Assembly (NCBI RefSeq): GCF_002356355.1
Contig: NZ_AP018052.1
Span: forward strand, 124,001-188,000
Source of the DNA: Thiohalobacter thiocyanaticus
GTDB lineage: Bacteria; Pseudomonadota; Gammaproteobacteria; Thiohalobacterales; Thiohalobacteraceae
DNA length: 64,000 nucleotides
Reading direction: 5' to 3'
Shown: positions 48,748-61,818 of the stretch, in pieces
Layout: each line of letters starts with the position of its first letter
Numbering within the stretch: position 1 is the first letter of the stretch
Notes under the pieces: generated by a model
What the model saw: the letters and a program-made list of their open reading frames with translations, nothing else
The model's database searches: none
Told to the model about the DNA's origin: nothing
Position numbers and translations under genes: made by a program

Positions 48748-49380
48748 ATGTATCAACAAATCAACCTCTATCAACCGGTCTTCCGTCACGAGAAGAAGGT
48801 CTTCTCGGCGCTGACCCTGTTGCAGCTGCTCGGCATCACCGTCCTGGTGCTGCTCGGGATCTATGCCGGGCTGCGCTGGCAGCTGGCCCAGGTCGAGCAC
48901 AACCTGGTCGCCCTGGAAACCCAGCACGTCCGCCTCAACCAGCAGATCGATGCCCTGGAACAGGCCCAGGCCGGCAGCGAACTCGAGACGCTGGACAACC
49001 GGATTGCGCAGCTGGAACAGCGCCGCGGCCTGCTGGATCAGGTGCTGGAGGAACTGGACAGTTTCCAGGCGCCGGAACGGCGCTTCTCCGCCCTGCTGAC
49101 CGGCCTGGCCCGGGTGCAGACAACCGACCTGTGGCTGACCCGCATCGAACTGCTGGCCGACGGCGGCGCGACCCTGGAAGGCCGGGCCTGGGACGCCCAG
49201 CGTGTCCCCGCCTACCTGGAACAGCTCGGCGCCAGCGATCACCTCGGCGAACTCGGGCTGAGCCAGGTCCGCATCGACAACGGCCCCGAGACCGGGGGCG
49301 TGCGCTTCAGTCTCAGCAACCGCCACACCGACAGCGCGCGGCTCAGCCGCCGGGCGGACGGGAGGGAACCGACTTCATGA
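48748..49380 (+). CDS. MSHA biogenesis protein, PilN-like (MshI2 type)
   Basis: 210 aa bitopic inner-membrane protein: MYQQINLYQPVFRHEKKVFS, then one membrane segment (LLQLLGITVLVLLGIYAGL) and a periplasmic coiled-coil/ferredoxin-fold region (LDNRIAQLEQRRGLLDQVLE). The N-terminal INLYQP motif is the peptide that PilN-type proteins use to bind the PilM-like actin fold, here MshI at the end of the cluster. First gene of the MSHA operon; the stop overlaps the next start (ATGA). Confidence 0.85.
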   Translation: MYQQINLYQPVFRHEKKVFSALTLLQLLGITVLVLLGIYAGLRWQLAQVEHNLVALETQHVRLNQQIDALEQAQAGSELETLDNRIAQLEQRRGLLDQVLEELDSFQAPERRFSALLTGLARVQTTDLWLTRIELLADGGATLEGRAWDAQRVPAYLEQLGASDHLGELGLSQVRIDNGPETGGVRFSLSNRHTDSARLSRRADGREPTS

Positions 49381-50015
49381 ACATGGACACCTTCAGGAAC
49401 TGGCAGGCCCGCATCGATGCGCTGTCACTGCGTGAGCGCGCCTTCCTGTTGCTGACCACCGGCCTGATCCTGGGCTATCTCCTCTACCTGCTGCTGATTC
49501 AGCCCACCTGGCAGGCCCTGCACCAGGGCCAGGCCGAACTGGAAAGCCTGCAGACACGCCTGACTGCGCTGGAGATCCGTTCCCGCGATCTGGCCAGCGG
49601 CCGCGCCACCCCGGAACAGGAACGCCATGACCGCATCGCCGCGCTGCAGGCGCAGCTCGCCGAGCGCGAGTCCCGGCTGCAGGCGCGGCTGGGCGGGGTA
49701 CTAGCCCCGCAGCAGGCGGCGCAATTATTGCAAAGCATCCTGGCGCAGTCGCGGGGACTGCAGCTGCGCCAGCTGCACAGCCATGCCGGCGCCCCGCTGT
49801 TCAACAAGGGCCCGACCGCTGCAACGGACGGCCCGGCGGTCGGCCGCTACAACCTGACCCTGGAGATGGAAGGCGGCTATGACGCCACCCGCCGCTTCCT
49901 GCAGCAGGTCGAGCAGCTGCCCTGGACCCTGTTCTGGGACAGCCTGGAGTATGAGGTGAAGGATCACCCTAATGCCATGATAAAACTGAATTTATACACA
50001 CTCGGACACTCATGA
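49377..50015 (+). CDS. mshJ: MSHA biogenesis protein MshJ (PilO-like)
   Basis: 212 aa from the ATG at 49377 that overlaps the previous stop, or 210 aa from the ATG at 49383. One membrane segment (AFLLLTTGLILGYLLYLLLI), a periplasmic coiled coil (residues 45-105) and a ferredoxin-like C-terminal domain (NLTLEMEGGYDATRRFLQQ). Forms the inner-membrane alignment complex with the PilN-like protein. It overlaps mshK by 4 bp. Confidence 0.87.
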   Translation: MNMDTFRNWQARIDALSLRERAFLLLTTGLILGYLLYLLLIQPTWQALHQGQAELESLQTRLTALEIRSRDLASGRATPEQERHDRIAALQAQLAERESRLQARLGGVLAPQQAAQLLQSILAQSRGLQLRQLHSHAGAPLFNKGPTAATDGPAVGRYNLTLEMEGGYDATRRFLQQVEQLPWTLFWDSLEYEVKDHPNAMIKLNLYTLGHS

Positions 50016-50350
50016 GGACAGCCCCTGCCAAGCCTGCGGTACTGGCCGCCCTGCTGCTGCTGGGCGGCGCTGCGGCCGGACCGGCCGCAGCCTCCACCCT
50101 GACCGACCCGACCGCGCCCAACCCGCGCGGACAGGGCGGGGCGCAGGGCGGGGCGGATGCAGGGCTGACCTGGACCCGGGTGACGGAAAACCGCCGCGAG
50201 GCCGTCATCAACGGCATCCGGGTGACGGAAGGCGACCGCCTGGGCGGGGTGCGCATCCTGCGCATTCGCCACGGCGCCGTCATGATCGAAACGGCCAGCG
50301 GTCGCAGCACCCTGCGATTGCAACCCAACAGGATAAAACAGCGCCCCTGA
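50012..50350 (+). CDS. mshK: MSHA biogenesis protein MshK (PilP-like)
   Basis: 112 aa with a signal peptide (AVLAALLLLGGAAAGPAAA). The short mature domain TDPTAPN...AVINGIRVTEGDRLGG and VMIETASGRSTLRLQ is the PilP/GspC homology-region type that links the inner-membrane complex to the secretin. Translationally coupled to mshJ. Confidence 0.85.
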   Translation: MRTAPAKPAVLAALLLLGGAAAGPAAASTLTDPTAPNPRGQGGAQGGADAGLTWTRVTENRREAVINGIRVTEGDRLGGVRILRIRHGAVMIETASGRSTLRLQPNRIKQRP

Positions 50351-50374
50351 ACGGGCAGGCGAAGGACCGTGACC

Positions 50375-52123
50375 ATGAAATCTCCGACCCCCGCACTCTC
50401 CCTGATCCTCGTCGCCGCGCTTGGCGCGGCCGGCTGCCAGCACCTGCCCGAACAGGATGCCCGCAGCGTTGCCCCGAACCTGGAGAGTATCGACACCGCC
50501 ATGGCCGCAGCCGAAACCGCCCCCCGCGAGGCCGGGCCCGCGCTGCCCCCGCAGGTGCAGGACACGCTGCTGCCCCCGGTTTCGGTGGAATTGCCGGCAT
50601 CGGCCCGCAGGGTCGAGCCGCGCTTTGACATCGCGGTCAACGCGATCCCGGCCCGGCAGTTCTTCATCGGTCTGGTCGAGGACAGCAGCTACAACATGGT
50701 GGTGCATCCCGACGTGGCCGGCAGCCTGACCCTGGACCTCAAGAACGTCAGCGTCGAGGAGGTCATGCAGACGGTGCGTGACGTCTATGGCTACGAGTAC
50801 CGCCGCAACGGCAACGTCTACCAGGTGATGCCGGCGCGCATGCGCTCGCGGGTGTTCAAGGTGGACTACCTCAATATCCAGCGCACCGGCAGTTCGCGCA
50901 CCCGGGTCAGTTCGGGTCAGGTCAGCGAGGCCGCCGGCGGCGGCGGTGATGATGATAGCGAGAGCGGCTCCAGCAGCAGCCGTTCCGACAGCGGCAGCAA
51001 CCGCGCCTCGGTGTCCGGCAGCGAGGTCAACACCCGTTCCGAATCCGATTTCTGGAGCGAACTCAGGGATGCCCTGACCATGCTCATCGGCGAGGAGGAG
51101 GGCCGCCGGGTGGTGATCAACGCCCAGGCCGGCATCCTGGTGGTGCGCGCCCTGCCGGGCGAGTTGCGCGACGTGGAGGAATACCTGGCCACGCTGCAGG
51201 ACGTGGTCCAGCGCCAGGTCATCCTGGAGGCCAAGATCGTCGAGGTGGAACTCAACGAGGGTTTCCGCACCGGCATCAACTGGAGCGCACTGGGCGAGCC
51301 GAAGACGGGTCAGACCGTGTTCGGCGGCCAGGCCGGCGGCGGCAGCATCATCACCGACGGTGTATCCGAATTCGCCGGCTCCCCGGTCACCCTGAGCCCG
51401 GGCGCAGGCATCATCGCGGCCGAGACCTCCAGCTTCGGCGGTATGAACTTCCTGTCCATCAACATGAACGACTTCACCGCCTTTCTCGAACTGCTCAAGA
51501 GCCAGGGCAAGGTGCAGGTGCTGTCCAGCCCGCGGGTGTCCACGGTCAACAACCAGAAGGCCGTGATCAAGGTGGGCACGGATGAGTTCTTCGTCACCGA
51601 CGTGGAGACCGATACCAACACCACGCTCAACACCACCAACCAGTCGGTCAATGTCGAGCTCACCCCCTTCTTCTCCGGGGTGGCGCTGGACGTGATCCCG
51701 CAGATCAGCGCCGATGACGAGGTCACGCTGCACATCCATCCCACGGTCAGCGAGGTCAGCGAGCGCACCAAGAGCATCAATGTCTCCACCGAAACCAGCC
51801 TGGAGATCCCGCTGGCCCTGTCCAGCATCCGCGAGTCCGACACCATCATCCGCGCCCGCAGCGGCCAGATCGTGGTCATCGGCGGCCTGATGAAGGACCA
51901 GCAGACCAACGAGGTGGCCAAGACCCCGGGGCTGGGCGACGTGCCCATGTTCGGCAAGCTGTTCCAGCACCAGCGCGAACGCAAGACCAAGAGCGAGCTG
52001 GTCATACTGCTGCGGCCCATCGTCACCTCCGGCAGCGGCGGTCAGGTCTGGAACGACCAGGTCCGTCAGTCGGCCGAACGCATCGGACGCATGCAGGCGC
52101 CGGGGCCTGCCGGGCTGCGCTGA
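50375..52123 (+). CDS. mshL: MSHA secretin MshL
   Basis: 582 aa outer-membrane secretin lipoprotein. Start at ATG 50375 with GAAGGA upstream; an in-frame GTG at 50369 is less likely. Lipobox ALGAAGC. Order: STN domain (about 80-130), N1-type domain, a Ser/Asp-rich linker (about 185-215), and the secretin pore (about 300-570) with VEVELNEGFRTGINW, VQVLSSPRVSTVNNQKAVI and RSGQIVVIGGLMKDQ. Length fits MshL/PilQ-like secretins of MSHA loci. Confidence 0.93.
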   Translation: MKSPTPALSLILVAALGAAGCQHLPEQDARSVAPNLESIDTAMAAAETAPREAGPALPPQVQDTLLPPVSVELPASARRVEPRFDIAVNAIPARQFFIGLVEDSSYNMVVHPDVAGSLTLDLKNVSVEEVMQTVRDVYGYEYRRNGNVYQVMPARMRSRVFKVDYLNIQRTGSSRTRVSSGQVSEAAGGGGDDDSESGSSSSRSDSGSNRASVSGSEVNTRSESDFWSELRDALTMLIGEEEGRRVVINAQAGILVVRALPGELRDVEEYLATLQDVVQRQVILEAKIVEVELNEGFRTGINWSALGEPKTGQTVFGGQAGGGSIITDGVSEFAGSPVTLSPGAGIIAAETSSFGGMNFLSINMNDFTAFLELLKSQGKVQVLSSPRVSTVNNQKAVIKVGTDEFFVTDVETDTNTTLNTTNQSVNVELTPFFSGVALDVIPQISADDEVTLHIHPTVSEVSERTKSINVSTETSLEIPLALSSIRESDTIIRARSGQIVVIGGLMKDQQTNEVAKTPGLGDVPMFGKLFQHQRERKTKSELVILLRPIVTSGSGGQVWNDQVRQSAERIGRMQAPGPAGLR

Positions 52124-52144
52124 ACGCACAGGGAAGGCAAGGGA

Positions 52145-53053
52145 ATGTACCTCGAACACTTCGGTCTGCGTGAGGCGCCCTTCAATATCACGCCGGACAC
52201 CGGTTTCTACTATGAGTCGCCCAGTCACCAGGAGGCGCTGAACACGCTGCTGGTCGCGCTGCGCAGCGGCACCGGCTTCATCAAGGTCACCGGCGAGGTC
52301 GGCACCGGCAAGACGCTGCTGTGCCGCAAGCTGCTCAACAGTCTGGATGAAAGCATCGTCACCGCCTGGCTGCCCAATCCCTTCGTCAATGCCACCGCCC
52401 TGCGCATGGCCTTCGCCGAGGAACTGGGGCTGGAATTTCCGCGCAACCTGGGCCAGCACCGACTGCTGAAACTGATCACCGACCGCCTGCTGGAACTGGC
52501 CGCCGCCGGCAAACAGGTGGTGCTGCTCATCGACGAGGCCCAGGCCCTGCCGGACGAGACGCTGGAGGCGATACGGCTGCTGACCAATCTGGAAACCGAA
52601 AAACAGAAGCTGCTGCTGGTGGTCCTGTTCGGCCAGCCCGAACTGGACGCCCGACTGGAGCAGCCGCGCATCCGTCAGCTCAGGCAGCGCATCATCTTCA
52701 GTTATCGACTGCGGCCCCTGACCGCGGCCGAGACCCGCGCCTATGTGCAGCACCGGCTGGCCGCGGCCGGCCGGCCCGAGACCGGGCTGTTCACCCCGCG
52801 TGCCCTGCGCCGGCTGCACCGGGCCGGGCGCGGCATCCCGCGCCTGATCAACATCCTCGGCCACAAGGCCCTGATGTCGGCCTTCGGCACCGGCGCCCAC
52901 CGGGTCACGGACCGTGACGCGCGCCGTGCCATCCGGGACACCGAAGACACCGCCCCGACCGGCCTGTTCTCCGGTTGGCACCTGACCCTGGGCGCGGCCG
53001 GTGTCGCCGGCGCCGGAGCCGGCGCCTTCCTGCTGCTGGGGACGCTGGCATGA
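52145..53053 (+). CDS. mshM: MSHA biogenesis ATPase MshM (ExeA-like)
   Basis: 302 aa AAA ATPase starting MYLEHFGLREAPFNITPDTG, the ExeA/GspA signature. Walker A GEVGTGKTLLC, Walker B LLIDEAQALPDE, sensor region VLFGQPELDARL. A C-terminal hydrophobic helix (LGAAGVAGAGAGAFLLLGTL) probably anchors it. ExeA-type ATPases help the secretin pass or bind peptidoglycan. Overlaps mshN by ATGA. Confidence 0.92.
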   Translation: MYLEHFGLREAPFNITPDTGFYYESPSHQEALNTLLVALRSGTGFIKVTGEVGTGKTLLCRKLLNSLDESIVTAWLPNPFVNATALRMAFAEELGLEFPRNLGQHRLLKLITDRLLELAAAGKQVVLLIDEAQALPDETLEAIRLLTNLETEKQKLLLVVLFGQPELDARLEQPRIRQLRQRIIFSYRLRPLTAAETRAYVQHRLAAAGRPETGLFTPRALRRLHRAGRGIPRLINILGHKALMSAFGTGAHRVTDRDARRAIRDTEDTAPTGLFSGWHLTLGAAGVAGAGAGAFLLLGTLA

Positions 53054-54159
53054 GCCTGGTCAACCAGGTCCTGCGCGATCTCGACGCACGCCGCGAGGCA
53101 CAACCGCTGGATGCGGCCCTGGAAGGCCTGCGTTCGGCGCCGCCGGCCACGCGCTCGGCCCACAAGGCCGGCATCGCCCTCGGGACGCTGGTCCTGCTCG
53201 GCCTGGTCGGCACCCTGGCCTGGGTCTACCTGCAGCCACCGCAGCAATCCACCGTGACCAGCGAACGCCCCCGTCCGGCAGCGGTCGAGGCGCCGGTTGC
53301 GCAGCCGGCATTGCCGCTGCGGCCGGCCGCTGACATCTCGGCCCTGTCCTCACCGGCGCCGGCCACAGCCGTCCACGCCGGCGCCGTGGTGGATAACGCT
53401 CACCCTGCCTCGACCGGCGTCAGCCCGTCGAGGGCCGAACCGGCCGTCCCGACAACGCCATCCGGTACGACCGCCGCTGAACCCGCCCGGCATGACGCCA
53501 CGGCGCCTACAGCGGCAACAGCCGCGACGGCGGCCATCCCGAACATGCGCAAGACAGCGCGTCCCCTCAGCGCGGCCGAGGTGGCGGAACAACATTTCGC
53601 CGAAGGCGTCGCGGCCCTCGAACAGGGCCAGTGGCGACTGGCCGAGCGCGGCCTGCAGGCCGCGCTCCAGGTCGACCCTGACCACCTGCAGGCGCGCGAG
53701 TCCCTGTCCGGGGTACTGCTCTACCAGGGCCGCCAGCGCGAGGCCGAGCAGGTACTCGCCGCCGGCCTGGAACGCCGCCCGTTGGCCCCTTCCCTGGCGC
53801 AGCCCTATGCCCGCCTGATCCTGGATCAGGGCCGTGACGATGCCGCCATCGAGGTACTGGAGACCGCCCTGGTCAACGCCGTGAATGACGCCGATTACCT
53901 GGCCCTGCTGGCCGGCGTCTACCAGCGCAACCAGCGCTACGCCGACGCCGACGCCAGCTACCGCAGCGCCCTGTCACTGGCGCCGCAACGTGCGGCCTGG
54001 TGGCTGGGTCTTGGGCTGGCACTGGAGGGTAGCGGCGAGCTGCCGCGTGCCGCCGGCGCCTACCGCAGCGCCATCGAGAACCCGGGCCTGAACCCGGATG
54101 CCCGCCGCTACGCCGAACAGCGGCTGCAGCGACTCAATCATCTTCTCGGACGCCAGTAA
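53050..54159 (+). CDS. mshN: MSHA biogenesis TPR protein MshN
   Basis: 369 aa. Starts MSLVNQVLRDLDARREAQPL, typical for MshN; a membrane segment (LGTLVLLGLVGTLAWVYL) near residue 40, a Pro/Ala-rich periplasmic linker (80-165), and TPR repeats (about 180-365: EGVAALEQGQWRLAERGLQA, YADADASYRSALSLAPQRA). Possibly a partner of the secretin assembly. The start at 53050 overlaps the mshM stop. Confidence 0.9.
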   Translation: MSLVNQVLRDLDARREAQPLDAALEGLRSAPPATRSAHKAGIALGTLVLLGLVGTLAWVYLQPPQQSTVTSERPRPAAVEAPVAQPALPLRPAADISALSSPAPATAVHAGAVVDNAHPASTGVSPSRAEPAVPTTPSGTTAAEPARHDATAPTAATAATAAIPNMRKTARPLSAAEVAEQHFAEGVAALEQGQWRLAERGLQAALQVDPDHLQARESLSGVLLYQGRQREAEQVLAAGLERRPLAPSLAQPYARLILDQGRDDAAIEVLETALVNAVNDADYLALLAGVYQRNQRYADADASYRSALSLAPQRAAWWLGLGLALEGSGELPRAAGAYRSAIENPGLNPDARRYAEQRLQRLNHLLGRQ

Positions 54160-54169
54160 GGAAACGGAT

Positions 54170-55876
54170 ATGGCCATGACCGCGCCCAAGAAAGTCCGCA
54201 TCGGCGACCTGCTGGTCGAGCACCGGATCATTTCCGAGTCCCAGCTTTCGGCCGCACTGGCCGAGCAGAAGAAAAGCGGCCGCAAGCTCGGCCGGGTGCT
54301 GATCGATCACGGTTATGTACAGGAGGATGCACTGCTCAAACTGCTGTCCGAACAGCTGGACATGCCCTACATCGACCTGGGCACCTTCGAGCTCAATCCG
54401 TCCGTGGTGCAGCGGCTTCCCGAGACCTTCGCCCGCCGCTACCGCGCCCTGGTACTGAAGGAGACCCCGACCGGTCTGCTGGTCGGCATGGGCGATCCCA
54501 CCGACATCTTCGCCTTCGACGAACTGGCCCGGGTGCTCAAGCGCCCGCTCACCCTGGCCGTGGTCAAGGAGTCCGACCTGCTGCACGCCATCGATCAGAT
54601 GTACGAGCACGGCGCCCAGATCCGCAACCTGGCCTCCGAGATCGGCCAGGATCTGTCCGAGAACGCCTTCGACCTGGGCAACCTGACCGCCGAATCCAGC
54701 CAGTCCGATGCCCCGGTGGTCAAGCTGCTGCAGACGATTTTCGAGGATGCAGTCCGCGCCAAGGCCTCGGATATCCACATCGAGCCCGACGAGGACGTGC
54801 TGCGCATCCGCCGCCGCGTCGACGGCGTGCTGCACGAACAGGTGATGGACGAGAAGCGCATCGCCGCCGCCCTGGTCTCACGGCTCAAGCTCATGGCCGG
54901 CGGCGACATCTCCGAGCGGCGCAAGCCGCAGGACGGGCGCTTCACCCTGAAGGTGAAGGACACCCAGATCGACGTGCGCATGGCCACCGTGCCGACCCAG
55001 AACGGCGAGGCCGCGGTGCTGCGCCTGCTGGACCAGGACGCCGGACGCTTCAACCTGGACGACCTGGGCATGCCGGCGGCGGTGCTGACCAGCTTCCGCC
55101 GCCAGATCCACAAGCCGCACGGCCTGGTGCTGGTCACCGGCCCGACCGGCAGCGGCAAGACCACCACGCTCTACGCCGCGCTGGGCGAGTTGAACCGGCC
55201 GCAGAAGAAGATCATCACCGTCGAGGACCCGGTCGAGATCCAGATGTCTCGGGTCAACCAGGTCCAGGTCAATCCCAAGATCGGCCTCGGCTTTGCCGAG
55301 GTCCTGCGTACCACCCTGCGCCTTGACCCCGACATCATCCTGGTCGGCGAGATCCGCGATCAGGAGACCGGCGAGATCGCCCTGCGGGCCTCGCTGACCG
55401 GCCACCTGGTGATGTCCACCCTGCACACCAACGACGCGGTCAGCAGTGCCATCCGCCTTATCGACATGGGTCTGGAACCCTACCTGGTGGCCTCCTCGGT
55501 CAGCGCCATCGTCGCCCAGCGACTGGTGCGCACCCTGTGTGAGAGTTGTCGCAACGAGCACACGCCCACGGCGGCCGAGCATGCCTGGCTGCAGGCCCTG
55601 GAGGGCAGGGACACGACGCCCGCCGTCTTCTATGAAGGCGCGGGCTGCAACAAGTGCAACCACACCGGCTATCGCGGCCGCACCGGTGTGTACGAAATCC
55701 TGGAACTCACCCCCGATCTGATCGACGCCCTGCGCCAGAACGACCAGAGCGCCTTCGAGCGCATCAGTTCTGCCGAATCACGCTACCGGCCGCTGGTCCA
55801 CCACGCCCTCGACCTGGCCGGGGCGGGCCAGACCTCGCTGGAAGAGGCCATGCGCCTGACGGGTTGGATCGAGTGA
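54170..55876 (+). CDS. mshE: MSHA pilus extension ATPase MshE
   Basis: 568 aa GspE/PilB-type ATPase. The N-terminal MshEN domain (RIGDLLVEHRIISESQLSAA, LGRVLIDHGYVQEDALLKLL) is the type that binds c-di-GMP, so pilus extension is likely controlled by it. Walker A GPTGSGKTTTLY, Walker B region DPDIILVGEIRDQETG, His box SLTGHLVMSTLHTNDA, and tetracysteine CESC...CNKC. Start at 54170; an ATG two codons later is also possible. Confidence 0.95.
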   Translation: MAMTAPKKVRIGDLLVEHRIISESQLSAALAEQKKSGRKLGRVLIDHGYVQEDALLKLLSEQLDMPYIDLGTFELNPSVVQRLPETFARRYRALVLKETPTGLLVGMGDPTDIFAFDELARVLKRPLTLAVVKESDLLHAIDQMYEHGAQIRNLASEIGQDLSENAFDLGNLTAESSQSDAPVVKLLQTIFEDAVRAKASDIHIEPDEDVLRIRRRVDGVLHEQVMDEKRIAAALVSRLKLMAGGDISERRKPQDGRFTLKVKDTQIDVRMATVPTQNGEAAVLRLLDQDAGRFNLDDLGMPAAVLTSFRRQIHKPHGLVLVTGPTGSGKTTTLYAALGELNRPQKKIITVEDPVEIQMSRVNQVQVNPKIGLGFAEVLRTTLRLDPDIILVGEIRDQETGEIALRASLTGHLVMSTLHTNDAVSSAIRLIDMGLEPYLVASSVSAIVAQRLVRTLCESCRNEHTPTAAEHAWLQALEGRDTTPAVFYEGAGCNKCNHTGYRGRTGVYEILELTPDLIDALRQNDQSAFERISSAESRYRPLVHHALDLAGAGQTSLEEAMRLTGWIE

Positions 55877-55889
55877 GGTTGGTGATGGG

Positions 55890-56051
55890 AACGCAGAAGG
55901 CGCGGAGGCGCGGAGGCGCGGAGTGTTTTAAAAATGTCAGAACCACGGATGTGCCGTTCAGCCGTGTTGCCGCACTCATGCCTCATCAGGCGAGCATGCT
56001 GCGCAATATTAATTTATCTCTGCGCCTCCGTGCCTCCGCGCCCTCTGCGTT
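55890..56051. repeat. Intergenic inverted-repeat element (AACGCAGA...GGCGCGGAGGC type)
   Basis: Ends AACGCAGAAGGCGCGGAGGC (55890-55909) and its near-complement (56032-56051) form a long inverted repeat with a tandem GCGGAGGC run on the left side. It is an AT-rich element without open frame inserted between mshE and mshG. Confidence 0.8.
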
Positions 56052-56077
56052 AATACCACCCACCCCGGAGCACCTCC

Positions 56078-57316
56078 ATGCCGCTGTTTGAGTACAAGGC
56101 CCGCGGGCCGCGCGGGGATGCCATCGAGGGCACGGTGGAGGCCAACACCATCGATGCCGTGGCCGGGCGCCTGATCGAGGGCGGGCTGGTGCCCATCGAC
56201 ATCCAGCCGGCGCAGGTGAAAAGCCACTGGAACCGTGACCTCAACGACATCTTTCCGGAGAAGGTCAAACTCGCCGACCTGATCCAGTTCAGCCGCCAGA
56301 TGCACAGCCTGCTGCGCGCCGGCGTGCCCATCCTGTCGGCCCTGAACGGCCTGACCGGCACCACCCGCAACCGCACCCTGGCGAAAGCCCTGGCCGAGAT
56401 CAGCGACATGCTCGAGGCTGGTCACGACCTGGCCAGCGCCCTGGCCCGGCACGAGGCCATCTTCAGTTCCTTTTATATAAGCCTGGTGCGGGTGGGCGAG
56501 ACCACCGGCCAGCTGGAGGAGATCTTTCTGCAGCTGGCCTACTACCTGGAACGCGAGAAGAAGACCCGCGATCAGATCAAGTCGGCCCTGCGTTACCCGA
56601 TCTTCGTGATCAGCGCCATCGCCATCGCGCTGGCCATCATCAATGTGTTCGTCATCCCGGCCTTCAGCGATGTGTTCGCCCGCTACGATGCCGAACTGCC
56701 GGTGATGACCCGTTTCCTGATCGCTATGTCGGACTTCTTCGTCAATCAGTGGCCGGTGTTGCTGGCCCTGCTCATCGGGAGCTTCTTCGGCCTGCGGATA
56801 TATCTCAACAGCGAGTCCGGACGCTACCGCTGGGACCGCTTCAAGCTGCGCCTGCCGCTGGTCGGCACGGTACTGGAGAAGGCTACCCTGTCGCGCTATG
56901 CGCGCCTGTTCAGCCTGGCGCACAAGGCCGGGGTGCCGCTGATGACCACGCTCACCGTGATCTCGAAGGCGGTGGACAACCACTATTTCGAGGAACGGGT
57001 GCTGGCCATGCGCACCGGCATCGAGCGCGGCGATTCCATCACCAACACCGCAGTGGCCTCCGGCCTGTTCGATCCGCTGGTGCTGCAGATGATGGCGGTG
57101 GGCGAACAGTCCGGCACCCTGGACGAGCTGCTGGGCGAGGTCGCCCGCTACTACGACCAGGAGGTGGAATACAGCATCGAGCGCCTGGCCGGCAGCATCG
57201 AGCCCATCCTGACCGTGGTCATCGGCATCATGGTGCTGGTGCTGGCACTGGGCATCTTCCTGCCCATGTGGGGCATGGCCGGCGCCATCCTGGGCAAGCC
57301 GACACCGGGGGCCTGA
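56078..57316 (+). CDS. mshG: MSHA inner-membrane platform protein MshG
   Basis: 412 aa GspF/PilC-type platform protein. Begins MPLFEYKARGPRGDAIEGTV; two homologous T2SF domains (about 70-195 and 275-400) with FSRQMHSLLRAGVPILSAL and RLFSLAHKAGVPLMTTLTVI, and three membrane helices (near 170, 225 and 385). The platform that MshE drives in pilus assembly. Separated from mshE by the inverted-repeat element. Confidence 0.94.
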   Translation: MPLFEYKARGPRGDAIEGTVEANTIDAVAGRLIEGGLVPIDIQPAQVKSHWNRDLNDIFPEKVKLADLIQFSRQMHSLLRAGVPILSALNGLTGTTRNRTLAKALAEISDMLEAGHDLASALARHEAIFSSFYISLVRVGETTGQLEEIFLQLAYYLEREKKTRDQIKSALRYPIFVISAIAIALAIINVFVIPAFSDVFARYDAELPVMTRFLIAMSDFFVNQWPVLLALLIGSFFGLRIYLNSESGRYRWDRFKLRLPLVGTVLEKATLSRYARLFSLAHKAGVPLMTTLTVISKAVDNHYFEERVLAMRTGIERGDSITNTAVASGLFDPLVLQMMAVGEQSGTLDELLGEVARYYDQEVEYSIERLAGSIEPILTVVIGIMVLVLALGIFLPMWGMAGAILGKPTPGA

Positions 57317-57476
57317 CCCCCTCTCCACCTCGGGGAGAGGGGCAGGGGTAATGGAGCGGAATTTTCACCCACAAAAAGTTAGCGCCCGACCCCTAAAGGT
57401 TTTCAAATACCGGGACGCTAACCCCATACACAGGGCAGTGACCCCATGTGGATGATTTTACGACCAAAGGAGCACG
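57317..57476. promoter_or_regulatory. mshA upstream region with hairpins and ribosome site
   Basis: A CCCCTCTCC/GGAGAGGGG hairpin (57317-57343) and an inverted pair GTTAGCG (57378-57384)/CGCTAAC (57416-57422). AAGGAG (57468-57473) lies before the pilin ATG. The pilin probably has its own promoter here; no clear hexamers seen. Confidence 0.45.
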
Positions 57477-57479
57477 AAC

Positions 57480-57845
57480 ATGCAACGTCAATCCGGTTTT
57501 ACTCTGATCGAGCTGGTGATGGTGATCGTCATCCTCGGTATTCTGGGGGCCATTGCCACGCCGATCTTCGTTGATCTGGAATCCGAGGCGCAGACTGCCG
57601 CCGAGCGCGGGATGAGCGGTGCCGTCAAGGCCGCCCACGCCGTGGCCATCGCCGATCTGAAGCGCTTCCCGACCGTCACCGAACTGTCCACCTATGTCCA
57701 GGGCGAGAACATCAATGCTTCCGGCACCGGCATCGAAGTGGATATCGGCGGCACCATCTCCACCGTGCCGACCTACACCGATACCAACTGCTCCACGGCC
57801 AGCAGCGCGGTCGGTGACACTATACGCTGTGTCGGGAATATCTGA
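57480..57845 (+). CDS. mshA: MSHA-type major pilin (type IV prepilin)
   Basis: 121 aa. Prepilin leader MQRQSG, cut before F by the prepilin peptidase, then the N-terminal helix FTLIELVMVIVILGILGAIA with the conserved Glu5. The C-terminal disulfide loop is probably C105-C117 (DTNCSTA...TIRCVG). MshA and MshB are hard to tell apart; only one such gene is present, followed by a terminator, which fits a highly expressed major subunit. Confidence 0.9.
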   Translation: MQRQSGFTLIELVMVIVILGILGAIATPIFVDLESEAQTAAERGMSGAVKAAHAVAIADLKRFPTVTELSTYVQGENINASGTGIEVDIGGTISTVPTYTDTNCSTASSAVGDTIRCVGNI

Positions 57846-57884
57846 TACGGCCTGACGGCCCACTGGTTGTAAGCACGCGCAAGA

Positions 57885-57910
57885 GGGTGGGCCATCGTGC
57901 CCACCCTTTT
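57885..57910 (+). terminator. Terminator/attenuator after the major pilin
   Basis: GGGTGGGC-CATCGT-GCCCACCC followed by TTTT. It probably stops most transcripts after the pilin gene, lowering expression of the minor pilin genes downstream. Confidence 0.85.
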
Positions 57911-57940
57911 GCGTCCCGGGCACCGGAAGGAAACGGCGTC

Positions 57941-58384
57941 ATGCGACAACAGGGATTCACACTGGTCGAATTGATCGTGGTCATGCTGGTCATGGCCGTG
58001 CTGGCAGCCTATGTCGGCACCCGCTGGTCCTTCGGTGACGCCACGGTCAGCGTCCAGGCCGAACAGCTGGCGCGCGATCTGCGCCATACCCAGATGCTGG
58101 CCATGCAGCAGGGCCGGACCCTGCGGCTGGAAGCCACCGGCAGCGGCTACCGGGTCACCGACGGCGCCAGCGTCATCACCGATCCCGCCACCCAGCAGAA
58201 TTTCATCCAGACGCTCGACAACGGTGTCAGCCTCGGTGGCGGTTCGATCGAGTTCGACTCCCTGGGCCGCCCGCTGAGCAGCGGCAGTCTCGCCAGCGCG
58301 GCCGTCGGTTTCAGTCTCAGCGGCAGCAGCGATACCGCCGCAGTCACTGTGGCGCCGGTCACCGGCTTCGTGAGCGGGCCTTGA
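57941..58384 (+). CDS. mshC: MSHA minor pilin MshC
   Basis: 147 aa from the ATG at 57941 with GGAAGGAAA upstream. Short leader MRQQG cut before FTLVELIVVMLVMAVLAAYV. The mature domain is GspH/FimT-like (EQLARDLRHTQMLAMQQGRT, DSLGRPLSSGSL). A minor pilin likely at the pilus tip or initiation complex. An inverted-repeat element begins 3 bp after its stop. Confidence 0.87.
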   Translation: MRQQGFTLVELIVVMLVMAVLAAYVGTRWSFGDATVSVQAEQLARDLRHTQMLAMQQGRTLRLEATGSGYRVTDGASVITDPATQQNFIQTLDNGVSLGGGSIEFDSLGRPLSSGSLASAAVGFSLSGSSDTAAVTVAPVTGFVSGP

Positions 58385-58386
58385 TA

Positions 58387-58637
58387 ATGGCCACGGAAAA
58401 CACGGAAAGCACGGACGTGAATAGCCACAAGGAGCGATCAAGCTCCCCGTCATCCCGGCGCAGGCCGGGATCCAGTAACCGCTGCGGCCGGTTCAACCCG
58501 GTCTGCGCCGGGTTGACAGGGTCGTCAGAGTCTTTCCATACAGGCTTCGGTGGATGCCTGGATCCCGGCCTGCGCCGGGATGACGGTAATGGTGGATCTC
58601 ATGGCAGATTTGAACATTCCGTGTTTTCCGTGGCCAT
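58387..58637. repeat. Nested inverted-repeat element between mshC and mshD
   Basis: Outer perfect 20-bp arms ATGGCCACGGAAAACACGGA (58387-58406) and its complement (58618-58637); an inner 28-bp pair at 58448-58475 and 58558-58585 of the CATCCCGGCGCAGGCCGGGA type. The right outer arm contains the apparent mshD start. Related to the element at 22466-22622. Confidence 0.9.
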
Positions 58638-59028
58638 TTCTGAAAGGCAAACCGGCTTCAGTCTGATCGAGCTGGTCATGGTGATCGTCATCCTGGCGCT
58701 GGCCTCGCTGGCCATCGGCACTCAGTTCATGCAGAGCGCGCAGAGCTGGATGCTGGACGAGCGCATCCAGACCGCCAGCCAGCTGGCCCAGGCCCGCGCC
58801 GAGCAACTGCTGGCCGACCGCCGGCTCAACAACTACAGCGCGGTGCCGGCCGGCACCACCAGCGAAACCCTGGCCGGCAACTACACCGGCTATACCCGCA
58901 CCACCGTGGTCTCGGCCTACGCCGGCGCGGCCTGCCCGGTAGCCGACTGCCGCCAGGTGGTGATCACCGTGACCGACGCCGACGCCCAGGTCCGCGCCGA
59001 GACCACGCTCATGGTGGCCAACTACTGA
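58621..59028 (+). CDS. mshD: MSHA minor pilin MshD
   Basis: 135 aa if the GTG at 58621 is used; GTG at 58630 is the alternative. The ORF extends upstream in the same frame through the repeat, but that part has no protein character. Leader ends at QTG, cut before FSLIELVMVIVILALASLAI. The C-terminal part (CPVADCRQVVITVTDADAQ) is typical for MshD. There is no ribosome site before either GTG, because the intergenic element has replaced the original upstream sequence. Confidence 0.82.
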   Translation: MFSVAISERQTGFSLIELVMVIVILALASLAIGTQFMQSAQSWMLDERIQTASQLAQARAEQLLADRRLNNYSAVPAGTTSETLAGNYTGYTRTTVVSAYAGAACPVADCRQVVITVTDADAQVRAETTLMVANY

Positions 59029-59582
59029 TGCGCCGCCCGAACCCACACATCGCCGGCCAGTGCGGCTTCACCCTGATCGAGATGGTCATCACCATTCTGG
59101 TGCTGTCCATCATCGGCGGGGTCACGGCCTATACCATCAGCCACGGGGCGCGGGCCTACATCGACAGCCGCACCGTCGTCGCCACCCTGAGCAAGCTGCG
59201 CCTGGCCAGTGAACGCCTGGCGCGCGAAATCCGCAGCGTACGCCGCGATCCGGCCGCGACCGGACAGTATGACTTCAATGGCTTCCCCACTGCGACCGGC
59301 CTGTCCTTCGATCGACTGGAGGCCGACGGTGTGACCGTGACCAGGGTCAGCATCGACGGCAGCGCCAATCCGCTCACCCTGGAATACGACACGCCTTCGG
59401 GCGCCCAGACGCTGACCGACCAGGTGAGCAGCTTCAGCCTGGCCTACTACCAGGCCGACGGCGTCACTGCCGCCACCTCCACTGCCGATATTGCCTTCGT
59501 CGAATTCGAACTGGTGCTGCAGGATGCCAACGGCAACAGCTATCCCCAGCGCACCCGGGTGGCCCTGAGGAACCAGCAATGA
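59028..59582 (+). CDS. mshO: MSHA minor pilin MshO
   Basis: 184 aa. Prepilin leader ending QCG, cut before FTLIEMVITILVLSIIGGVT (Glu5 present). PilW/MshO-type body: TLSKLRLASERLAREIRSVR, LSFDRLEADG. Start overlaps the mshD stop (TGATG). Overlaps the next gene by 4 bp. Confidence 0.9.
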   Translation: MRRPNPHIAGQCGFTLIEMVITILVLSIIGGVTAYTISHGARAYIDSRTVVATLSKLRLASERLAREIRSVRRDPAATGQYDFNGFPTATGLSFDRLEADGVTVTRVSIDGSANPLTLEYDTPSGAQTLTDQVSSFSLAYYQADGVTAATSTADIAFVEFELVLQDANGNSYPQRTRVALRNQQ

Positions 59583-60874
59583 TGGCAGTGCGCCGACGAC
59601 AGCGGGAATTCACTGCACCCCCTGCCCGCCAGCGCGGCGCGGCGCTGGTGGTGGCGGCGGTGTTTCTGGTCGCGGTCATGGTGGTACTGGGTGACGTCAC
59701 CCTGCGTTTGTCCGCCACCAACGTGACCGACTCGTCCCTCCAGGCCGATGCGGTCGATGCCCTGTTTCTGGCCGAGTCCGGCATGGAGCACGCCGCCCAG
59801 CGCCTGGCCAACGGTGTCACCTGCATCAACCTGGTCATGGGCTCGGCGGTGAGTTTCGGCCGCGGCGATTTCCAGGTCACCCAGGCCACGGATGTCAGCG
59901 GCGACTGCCGCGTACAGGTCACGGGCCGGGTGCTGTTCGGCGGCGGCAGTCTGCGGGCCCAGCGCACAGTCGAAGGCATACTCAGTCCGCAGTCCGGTGG
60001 GGGCACCTGGGCGGTCGGCGCCAACGGCACCCTGCTCAGCTACAACGGCAGTACCTGGACGCTGGAACCCGCCATCACCGGCAACAGTCTTACTGACATC
60101 ACCTGCGCAAGGGATGACTGCTTTGCCGTCGGGGACGGCGGCACCATCCTGTACTGGGACGGTAGCGCCTGGAGCGACATCTCGCCGGGCGGCAGCAACC
60201 TCGAAGGCGTGGCCTGCGCGCCGGACGATCCAACCTCCTGTTTCGCCGTCGGGGCCGGCGGCATCCTCTCCTGGAACGGCAGCAGCTGGAATCCGGTCGC
60301 TGGTGGCAATTACAACGACGTGTACTGCGATACCTTGCGTTGTTATTTCGTCGGCGACGGCCCTGTCATTTCCGCTTCGCCTGCCACCCCTGAACTCAAT
60401 TTACACAATCGCGACCTTAGCGGTGTCGCTTGCCGTCCAAATGATGACAGCCGCTGTTTCGCGGTCGGCGCCAATGGCACCATTCACGAGCGCGTCGATT
60501 TCTTAGGCATCGGGTGGTGGACCAGCAATTCATCCGGCACCAATCGCCATCTGTATGATGTGGAATGTCCGATGGATGATTTCTGTATCGCCATCGGCCA
60601 TAACGGCACTATTCTCCATGGCGACGCCGCCGGTAACTGGATCGATGGTGGCTCGCCGACCAATCGTCATCTGCACGGAATTTCCTGCGAGCCCGACACC
60701 AACGACAACTGCATTGCAGTCGGCCGTAATGGCGAGATCCTGCAATACGACGGCAACTGGTCGACCATGTCATCACCCACTGGTACGCATCTGAGTGGGG
60801 TACATATATCAGCGTCTGGGGGCGGCGGCAGCAGTGCCGTATTGCTCACGCGCTGGTGGGAAATCATTAATTAG
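59579..60874 (+). CDS. mshP: MshP-like minor pilin with C-terminal seven-repeat propeller domain
   Basis: 431 aa, far longer than usual MshP (about 150 aa). Residues 1-140 are MshP/PilX-like: QRGAALVVAAVFLVAVMVVL, then LFLAESGMEHAAQRL. Residues 144-394 hold seven repeats of the kind CFAVGxxGTILxxxGxxW (starting at 144, 181, 221, 255, 293, 336 and 378), similar to Ycf48-type beta-propeller blades. Six of them have a nearby Cys pair (such as ITCARDDCFAVG). A tip-exposed binding domain is likely. The C-terminal part is AT-richer than the rest of the locus. No separate mshQ is found. Confidence 0.8.
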   Translation: MMAVRRRQREFTAPPARQRGAALVVAAVFLVAVMVVLGDVTLRLSATNVTDSSLQADAVDALFLAESGMEHAAQRLANGVTCINLVMGSAVSFGRGDFQVTQATDVSGDCRVQVTGRVLFGGGSLRAQRTVEGILSPQSGGGTWAVGANGTLLSYNGSTWTLEPAITGNSLTDITCARDDCFAVGDGGTILYWDGSAWSDISPGGSNLEGVACAPDDPTSCFAVGAGGILSWNGSSWNPVAGGNYNDVYCDTLRCYFVGDGPVISASPATPELNLHNRDLSGVACRPNDDSRCFAVGANGTIHERVDFLGIGWWTSNSSGTNRHLYDVECPMDDFCIAIGHNGTILHGDAAGNWIDGGSPTNRHLHGISCEPDTNDNCIAVGRNGEILQYDGNWSTMSSPTGTHLSGVHISASGGGGSSAVLLTRWWEIIN

Positions 60875-60885
60875 GGGCGTTCACC

Positions 60886-61818
60886 ATGGCCATATTCTCT
60901 TTCCTCAACAAAAGCGGCAACGGCGAGAAGGCCGGGGTGCTGCTGGGCGAGTCGGGTGTCAGCCTGGCACGGATCAACGGCACCGTCGATACGCCCAGGC
61001 TTCTGGACCTGGGCTATCAGACGGGTGCCGCGGATGCCGCCACCCTGGAACAACTCATGCGCGAGCACCGACCCGGCCGCGCCGCGGTGCACTGCGTCCT
61101 GCCGCTGGGCAGCTACCAGCTGCTGCTGGTGGATATGCCCAAGGTGCCACCCAACGAGATCAAGGCGGCGGTACGCTGGCAGATCAAGGACCTGATCGAC
61201 TTTCACATCGACGATGCGGTGGTGGACGTGTTCGACGCCCCGCCCAGCGGCGCCGGCGGCGCACAGGAACAGGTCTACGTGGTGGTCACCCGCGCCAGCC
61301 AGGTCCAGCATATCGCCGGAGCCGTGCAGCAGGCCGGCCTGTCACTGGCGGTGATCGACATCCCCGAACTGGCTCTGCGCAATCTCGCCGCGCGCCTGCC
61401 GGAGCAGGAGCAGGGTGTGGCGCTGATGTACCTGGAGGCCGGACGCGGCCTCATCGCGCTGTGCCGCGACAACACCCTGTACCTGGCCCGAACCATCGAG
61501 TTGGGACACGCGGCGCTGGCCGACCCGGACCCCGATCGCCGGGCCATGGCCGTGTCCAGCCTGGCACTCGAGATCCAGCGCTCCATGGATTACTACGATC
61601 GCTATTTCCAGCAGGCGCCGATCAATCATCTCTACATCGCGCCAACGGCCGAGGCCCTGCCCGGGCTGGTCAGCGAGTTGCATGGACAGGTCGGGCTGGA
61701 GGGCCGGCTGCTCGCGCCCGAACTGATCTTCTCCGGTGCCGAGATCGATACCGGGATCTGGGCGCACGGGCTTCTGGCGGTCGGTGCGGCGCTGCGGGAG
61801 GAGGGCAAGGCGTTGTGA
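60886..61818 (+). CDS. mshI: MSHA biogenesis protein MshI (PilM-like)
   Basis: 310 aa actin-like ATPase fold protein. Hallmarks of PilM/MshI are the N-terminal phosphate loop region (AGVLLGESGVSLARING), MPKVPPNEIKAAVRWQIKDL, AVIDIPELALRNLAA, and LALEIQRSMDYYDRYFQQAP. It would bind the INLYQ tail of the PilN-like first gene. In Vibrio and Shewanella mshI lies at the start of the locus; here it is last. Confidence 0.87.
   Translation: MAIFSFLNKSGNGEKAGVLLGESGVSLARINGTVDTPRLLDLGYQTGAADAATLEQLMREHRPGRAAVHCVLPLGSYQLLLVDMPKVPPNEIKAAVRWQIKDLIDFHIDDAVVDVFDAPPSGAGGAQEQVYVVVTRASQVQHIAGAVQQAGLSLAVIDIPELALRNLAARLPEQEQGVALMYLEAGRGLIALCRDNTLYLARTIELGHAALADPDPDRRAMAVSSLALEIQRSMDYYDRYFQQAPINHLYIAPTAEALPGLVSELHGQVGLEGRLLAPELIFSGAEIDTGIWAHGLLAVGAALREEGKAL

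Follow-up and report, generated by a model that had tools for sequence, protein, structure and literature searches.

Which protein occupies the tip of a mannose-sensitive hemagglutinin (MSHA) pilus when the locus lacks the large mshQ gene that usually follows mshP? This question is raised by a 64,000-nucleotide stretch of a complete Thiohalobacter genome of 3.23 Mb (contig NZ_AP018052.1, positions 124,001 to 188,000; hereafter, the window), in which a single gene at the mshP position encodes a prepilin with a predicted seven-bladed beta-propeller apparently inserted into it. We consider it probable that the product is a modular minor pilin that caps an MSHA-type pilus, takes the role of a short MshP plus a separate MshQ and presents an exchangeable head. 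The gene and its parts are as follows.

59579..60874, + strand: gene at the mshP position, prepilin with inserted seven-bladed propeller, 431 amino acids (single open reading frame; orthologues between mshO and mshI1)
59627..59989, + strand: PilX/MshP-type pilin module, residues 17-137 (PilX_N; structure model with helices at 17-44 and 52-77 and strands in 96-137)
60002..60817, + strand: inserted seven-bladed beta-propeller, residues 142-413, with six Cys pairs and YCF48-like repeats
60830..60871, + strand: end of a Gly-rich linker and C-terminal closing strand ..AVLLTRWWEIIN (model strand 421-429)

The earlier note on this DNA had described one gene with an MshP-like N-terminus, and both claims were borne out. 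The 431 codons lie in one frame without internal stops, and the gene is intact and collinear in T. thiocyanaticus (the closest named relative, 75%) and in further relatives, which rules out two genes or a frameshift at 59579-60874. The N-terminus carries a class III leader ending in ...RQRG, followed by the mature sequence AALVV, a long hydrophobic alpha helix and three strands. A PilX_N match covers residues 19-70 (E 3e-4, just under the Pfam gathering score; in the genome search this region scored above the cut-off), and the Pfam scan of the 431-aa protein gave no N_methyl match. As a PilX-type pilin gene adjoining mshO inside an MSHA locus, it can be classified as an mshP, and the combination of a class III leader, a pilin helix and an extra domain that is not specific to pili (the propeller) makes its product a probable modular type IV pilin in the sense of PMC8179133, by which the module would also have a direct function such as binding. 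The pilin module has a Cys pair of its own (Cys82/Cys110), additional to those of the propeller. The mature protein has Val at position 5 and thus no Glu5, and in 13 of 13 propeller relatives this position is hydrophobic. Lack of Glu5 distinguishes the K-type subunit, with which tip complexes of type IV systems are capped (PMC10191384).

The propeller itself is well delineated. Seven copies of the blade motif [FWIY][AFV][VI]G were counted (shuffled sequences: mean 0.10, maximum 2 in 2000), together with six [IV]xC(4-7)C units (mean 0.02, maximum 1). Structure prediction from the single sequence was weak (predicted local distance difference test, pLDDT, 56), and the model used was instead built on a three-sequence alignment, with a mean pLDDT of 76.5 and values of about 80-92 over most of the propeller. 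Residues 142-413 of this model align with seven-bladed structures, the best being 7bid (Z 32.7, root mean square deviation 2.1, 266 residues), and YCF48 is also among the fold matches. A single-sequence search of solved structures returned no significant match; the family profile matched Ycf48 with an E-value of 5.7e-8. Structure prediction, the check that the earlier note had proposed, thus upheld its seven repeats and closed propeller. Its expectation of one Cys pair per blade stood in part, as there are six pairs in the propeller (176/181, 213/221, 250/255, 285/293, 330/336 and 370/378), with 10 of the 12 cysteines invariant among seven family members. Propellers usually close their ring by completing the first half-blade. 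Here the first half-blade (142-170, WAVGANGTLLSYNGSTW) has no Cys pair and is completed by the last half-repeat LSGVHIS, also without Cys, and seven blades therefore come with only six pairs. Judging by Cys spacing and conservation, these pairs probably form disulfides. Propeller matches were absent from the plasmids searched. Outside msh loci, very long proteins (L083, L084, L085 and L086) are built from this Cys-paired AVG..W.G..W repeat, present many times over.

The propeller is one of several domains found at this place. A class-wide profile search of 369 genomes, with loci then read individually, showed that many families have the gene at this position, flanked by mshO and mshI1. An insert-bearing MshP is present there in 23 sampled gammaproteobacterial genomes from 14 families, with the propeller in some and two other domains in the rest. 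The earlier note had suggested a search for further MshP/PilX-propeller fusions, and this yielded the 13 propeller relatives, with unrelated domains at the same place elsewhere. These two further recurrent insert types, EPF (11 proteins) and GVTY (5), cluster apart, by E-values that include the training sequences, and had no Pfam match above cut-off in the members scanned. The insert-bearing proteins scanned match PilX_N weakly if at all, and their inserts match nothing above the Pfam cut-off; annotation may therefore miss this class. One locus (L067:3375-6106) has a tandem pair of insert-bearing MshP genes, and the insert of one includes a long low-complexity run of (GGSSGGSM)n.

Insert-bearing MshP also alternates with MshQ. 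DUF6701, the MshQ domain, occurs in 83 of the 369 genomes, and the search that was positive in these found none in the host genome. It was detected in one of 23 genomes with an insert-bearing MshP vs 16 of 16 with a short MshP (Fisher p 4.5e-10), in a table for which MshP classes were assigned by hand and in which related genomes are non-independent; three genomes with short PilX-like genes (G333, G358 and G267) were left out, their loci being without the msh gene set. Counting by family gave p 2.7e-6, with one family holding both kinds. The sole exception (G089, L124:293-6022) has an insert-bearing MshP plus, further on, a second set of short MshP beside MshQ. In a few short-MshP genomes DUF6701 lies far off or on another contig, and the alternation is therefore a link at the level of genomes. 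The proposal that the gene stands at the place of mshP and mshQ and replaces MshQ is in keeping with this pattern.

We suggest that prepilin peptidase would cut after Gly20 and that the resulting Glu5-less pilin, with its K/PilX-like helix, would sit uppermost in the tip complex. The propeller would project as a binding head, probably adhesive and in contact with some ligand, while the C-terminal strand with its W-x-E motif would fold back and close the pilin sheet. One polypeptide would in this way perform the role of short MshP plus MshQ, with the head as an exchangeable cassette. Tip location and adhesion are suggested by the missing Glu5 and by analogy with ComZ, GspK and PilY1. Several observations weigh against such a tip pilin. 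The pilin part and the C-terminal strand were modelled, on an alignment of three sequences, less confidently than the propeller; the tail is missing from three EPF-type proteins; of 11 genomes in the order, two (G002, and G006, which is 100% complete) gave no match; and a propeller of the Ycf48 type could act as a chaperone or sense a ligand and not be an adhesin.

The last point touches on the alternative that survives best, namely that the insert has a structural or assembly function (in priming, in capping, or as a plug gating the secretin at the outer membrane) and that head variation reflects phage escape or drift. Vibrio cholerae without MshQ produces less surface MSHA, whereas retraction is not reduced (PMC7096442), which implies that the replaced part also serves biogenesis; assembly is primed by tip complexes (PMC7541494), and the most similar solved propeller, Ycf48, is an assembly factor. 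However, three unrelated domains at one site and the replacement of the head alone are easier to reconcile with a ligand contact that varies than with an assembly contact that is fixed, and we regard a structural or assembly role as unlikely.

A second alternative concerns the way in which the head is attached. Behind the propeller, a Gly-rich linker leads to AVLLTRWWEIIN, which contains the conserved last strand ..RWWEIIN; strand 421-429 is predicted at moderate model confidence, and W426 and E428 (W-x-E) are invariant in the 13 propeller relatives. The orthologue in another genome of the same family (G008) has 165 aa and no insert, and keeps ..IHLAHWHEVLQ right behind the pilin strands. The tail therefore probably belongs to the pilin module, with the propeller placed before it. 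On sequence grounds, the propeller appears to be an insertion before the conserved last strand and not a C-terminal addition; the fusion described in the earlier note holds insofar as pilin and propeller form one polypeptide, but the propeller does not seem to have been simply appended. The last strand probably pairs with the pilin sheet and closes it. That the protein is an ordinary C-terminal fusion, with the W-x-E tail a mere end of the propeller and without a role in the pilin sheet, would accord with the moderate confidence of the last strand and with the three tail-less EPF-type relatives. This is nevertheless rather improbable, since the same tail stands behind unrelated domains (13/13 propeller, 5/5 GVTY and 7/11 EPF proteins, the last scored by eye), is retained without an insert, and is the ending of 0/15 short MshP beside MshQ. 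An automated W.[ED] count gave 10/11 for EPF, which is too high: L061, L065 and L068 match within the domain, and L092 stops at ..VISW.

Similar endings occur in separate adhesin-like proteins. Among MshQ C-termini, 12 of 19 have xRE near the end (for example ..IYWREVY) and others end in FWKEIQN or FWQEVQ. The PilX of the host genome has a plain ending and its PilY1 ends in GRQSWRQLK; published models predict that the C-terminal strand of PilY1 adds to the PilX sheet (PMC11046646, PMC13190605). These two proteins are part of a second tip gene set (FimT/PilV/PilW/PilX/PilY1-like) in L126 (G000:C1:950500-960500, genes at 951515-957716). Four PilX-like proteins of other classes in the phylum (L129, L130, L134 and L135) have inserts that look solenoid-like by eye and W-x-E ends (..VSWQENF, ..GAWQELY, ..VAWEELF and ..NSWKEPGS), and two solenoid-insert PilX-like genes stand in tandem in G377. 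It is quite possible, and we propose it tentatively, that the C-terminal strands of MshQ and PilY1 (..SWRQL) and the W-x-E tail are the same closing-strand device for a tip pilin sheet, supplied either in trans, by a separate adhesin, or in cis, behind an inserted head; MshQ might then serve MshP likewise. We put this forward as a hypothesis because an eight-residue motif can be convergent.

The head also appears to move independently of its pilin. Between the window and a congeneric metagenome-assembled genome (L003), flanking msh genes share 81-97% protein identity and the pilin part 89%, with a synonymous divergence (dS) of 0.27, whereas the propeller shares 36%, with a dS of about 2.0. At the nucleotide level, identity of 92-95% gives way to about 48% across the propeller, neither more nor less, and rises again at once behind it; counted per 60 bases it is 33-62% between about 60000 and 60840, and the drop is confined to about 59990-60850. 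Propeller data reject a clade of window and L003 (approximately unbiased test, p 0.0003) and one of window, L003 and T. thiocyanaticus (p 0.012), and pilin data reject the grouping given by the propeller, in which L003 is left out (p 0.00015). The L003 propeller falls outside the propellers of the family with 99/99 support, and two members of the same family, L011 and L012, group with other families in the propeller tree. As far as can be read from these sequences, the whole propeller is the unit exchanged between window and L003. Least probable of the alternatives, fast evolution of the L003 propeller in place could draw on diversifying selection on tip heads and on the dS between window and T. 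thiocyanaticus, which is also higher in the propeller than in the pilin part (1.4 vs 0.6), but it is at odds with the jump at synonymous sites, the sharp boundaries and the position of the L003 propeller in the tree. The earlier note had linked exchange to an AT-richer 3' part. Both the AT-richness (GC content at third codon positions, GC3, of 0.58-0.65 in codons 241-431 vs 0.85-0.90 in neighboring msh genes) and exchange are real, but the exchanged unit is different: the 3' part was rejected as the exchanged piece, given the sharp break at the propeller boundaries and a GC3 dip that T. thiocyanaticus shares. Because it is common to both, the AT-rich part does not stem from a recent swap that affected only the window.

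The gene is embedded in an MSHA locus whose other members are listed below; names within 48748..59028 follow position and family, from Pfam for mshI2, mshL and the pilins and from synteny for mshE, G, A, C and D.

48748..59028, + strand: remaining MSHA locus, mshI2 (PilN), J, K, L (secretin), M, N, E, G, A, C and D
59028..59582, + strand: mshO-like minor pilin, overlapping the start of the mshP-position gene (N_methyl; synteny)
60886..61818, + strand: mshI1 (PilM_2; PF11104, E 2e-9), the downstream neighbor in most relatives

The mshI1 gene lies at the 3' end of the locus (48748-61818), after the mshP-position gene and not beside mshI2/J, an order common to many relatives. In one genome (G004, L010:972-2580) the propeller gene is divided between two frames that overlap; this frameshift could reflect faulty assembly or a gene that is broken.

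The field still asks by what means the tips of type IV pili carry and diversify the proteins they bind with, and how MshQ is attached. The pilus tip seems like a socket that takes one of several kinds of binding head, and the recurrent site with three unrelated heads, the alternation with MshQ and the clean exchange of heads make it testable whether the tip pilin presents an adhesin and holds it by strand completion. If the closing-strand reading is true, tips would alternate between a form encoded by two genes and one encoded by a single gene, and a head could be replaced while the pilus machinery stayed as it is.

Modular pilins and inserted tip domains are already known (PMC8179133, PMC6561018). 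The closest precedent for insertion site and tip role is ComZ, the competence tip pilin of Thermus thermophilus (PMC6561018), a proposed tip receptor in which the insert precedes the last pilin strand (here, the tail strand 421-429 is predicted and would pair with the sheet); however, the ComZ insert is a DNA-binding beta-solenoid from a different system, for which no exchangeable family of heads has been described. PilB and PilC of Streptococcus sanguinis (PMC8179133, PMC9934059) similarly use a pilin module to present an adhesive module, as we infer here, but their vWA and lectin modules are appended at the C-terminus. The published survey of modular pilins relied on the IPR012902 motif, whereas the protein here has PilX_N and no N_methyl in Pfam. 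The pseudopilin GspK of type II secretion caps the tip and has a domain inserted into it (PMC8179133, PMC6561018), although this insert is alpha-helical, sits at another loop and is not an adhesin. In type IVa pili, a propeller-bearing tip protein, PilY1, is joined to a PilX-type pilin (PMC11046646, PMC13190605), but as two proteins in trans, with a propeller of another family and the variable adhesive part of PilY1 at its N-terminus; the Pfam scan of the 431-aa protein gave no PF05567 (PilY1) match, and the one match in the genome lies elsewhere. MshP plus MshQ, the latter termed a putative adhesin (PMC7096442), share locus and position with our gene but are separate genes, and the short MshP has neither W-x-E tail nor propeller insert. 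YCF48/HCF136 resembles the head in being a seven-bladed propeller, by profile and fold match, and is a photosystem II assembly factor and not a pilin. The literature searched, of incomplete coverage, contained no propeller-bearing tip pilin. To judge from this literature, what is new comprises a probable MSHA tip pilin with a propeller as its head, a recurrent site with exchangeable heads, the alternation with MshQ and a closing strand possibly provided in cis or in trans.
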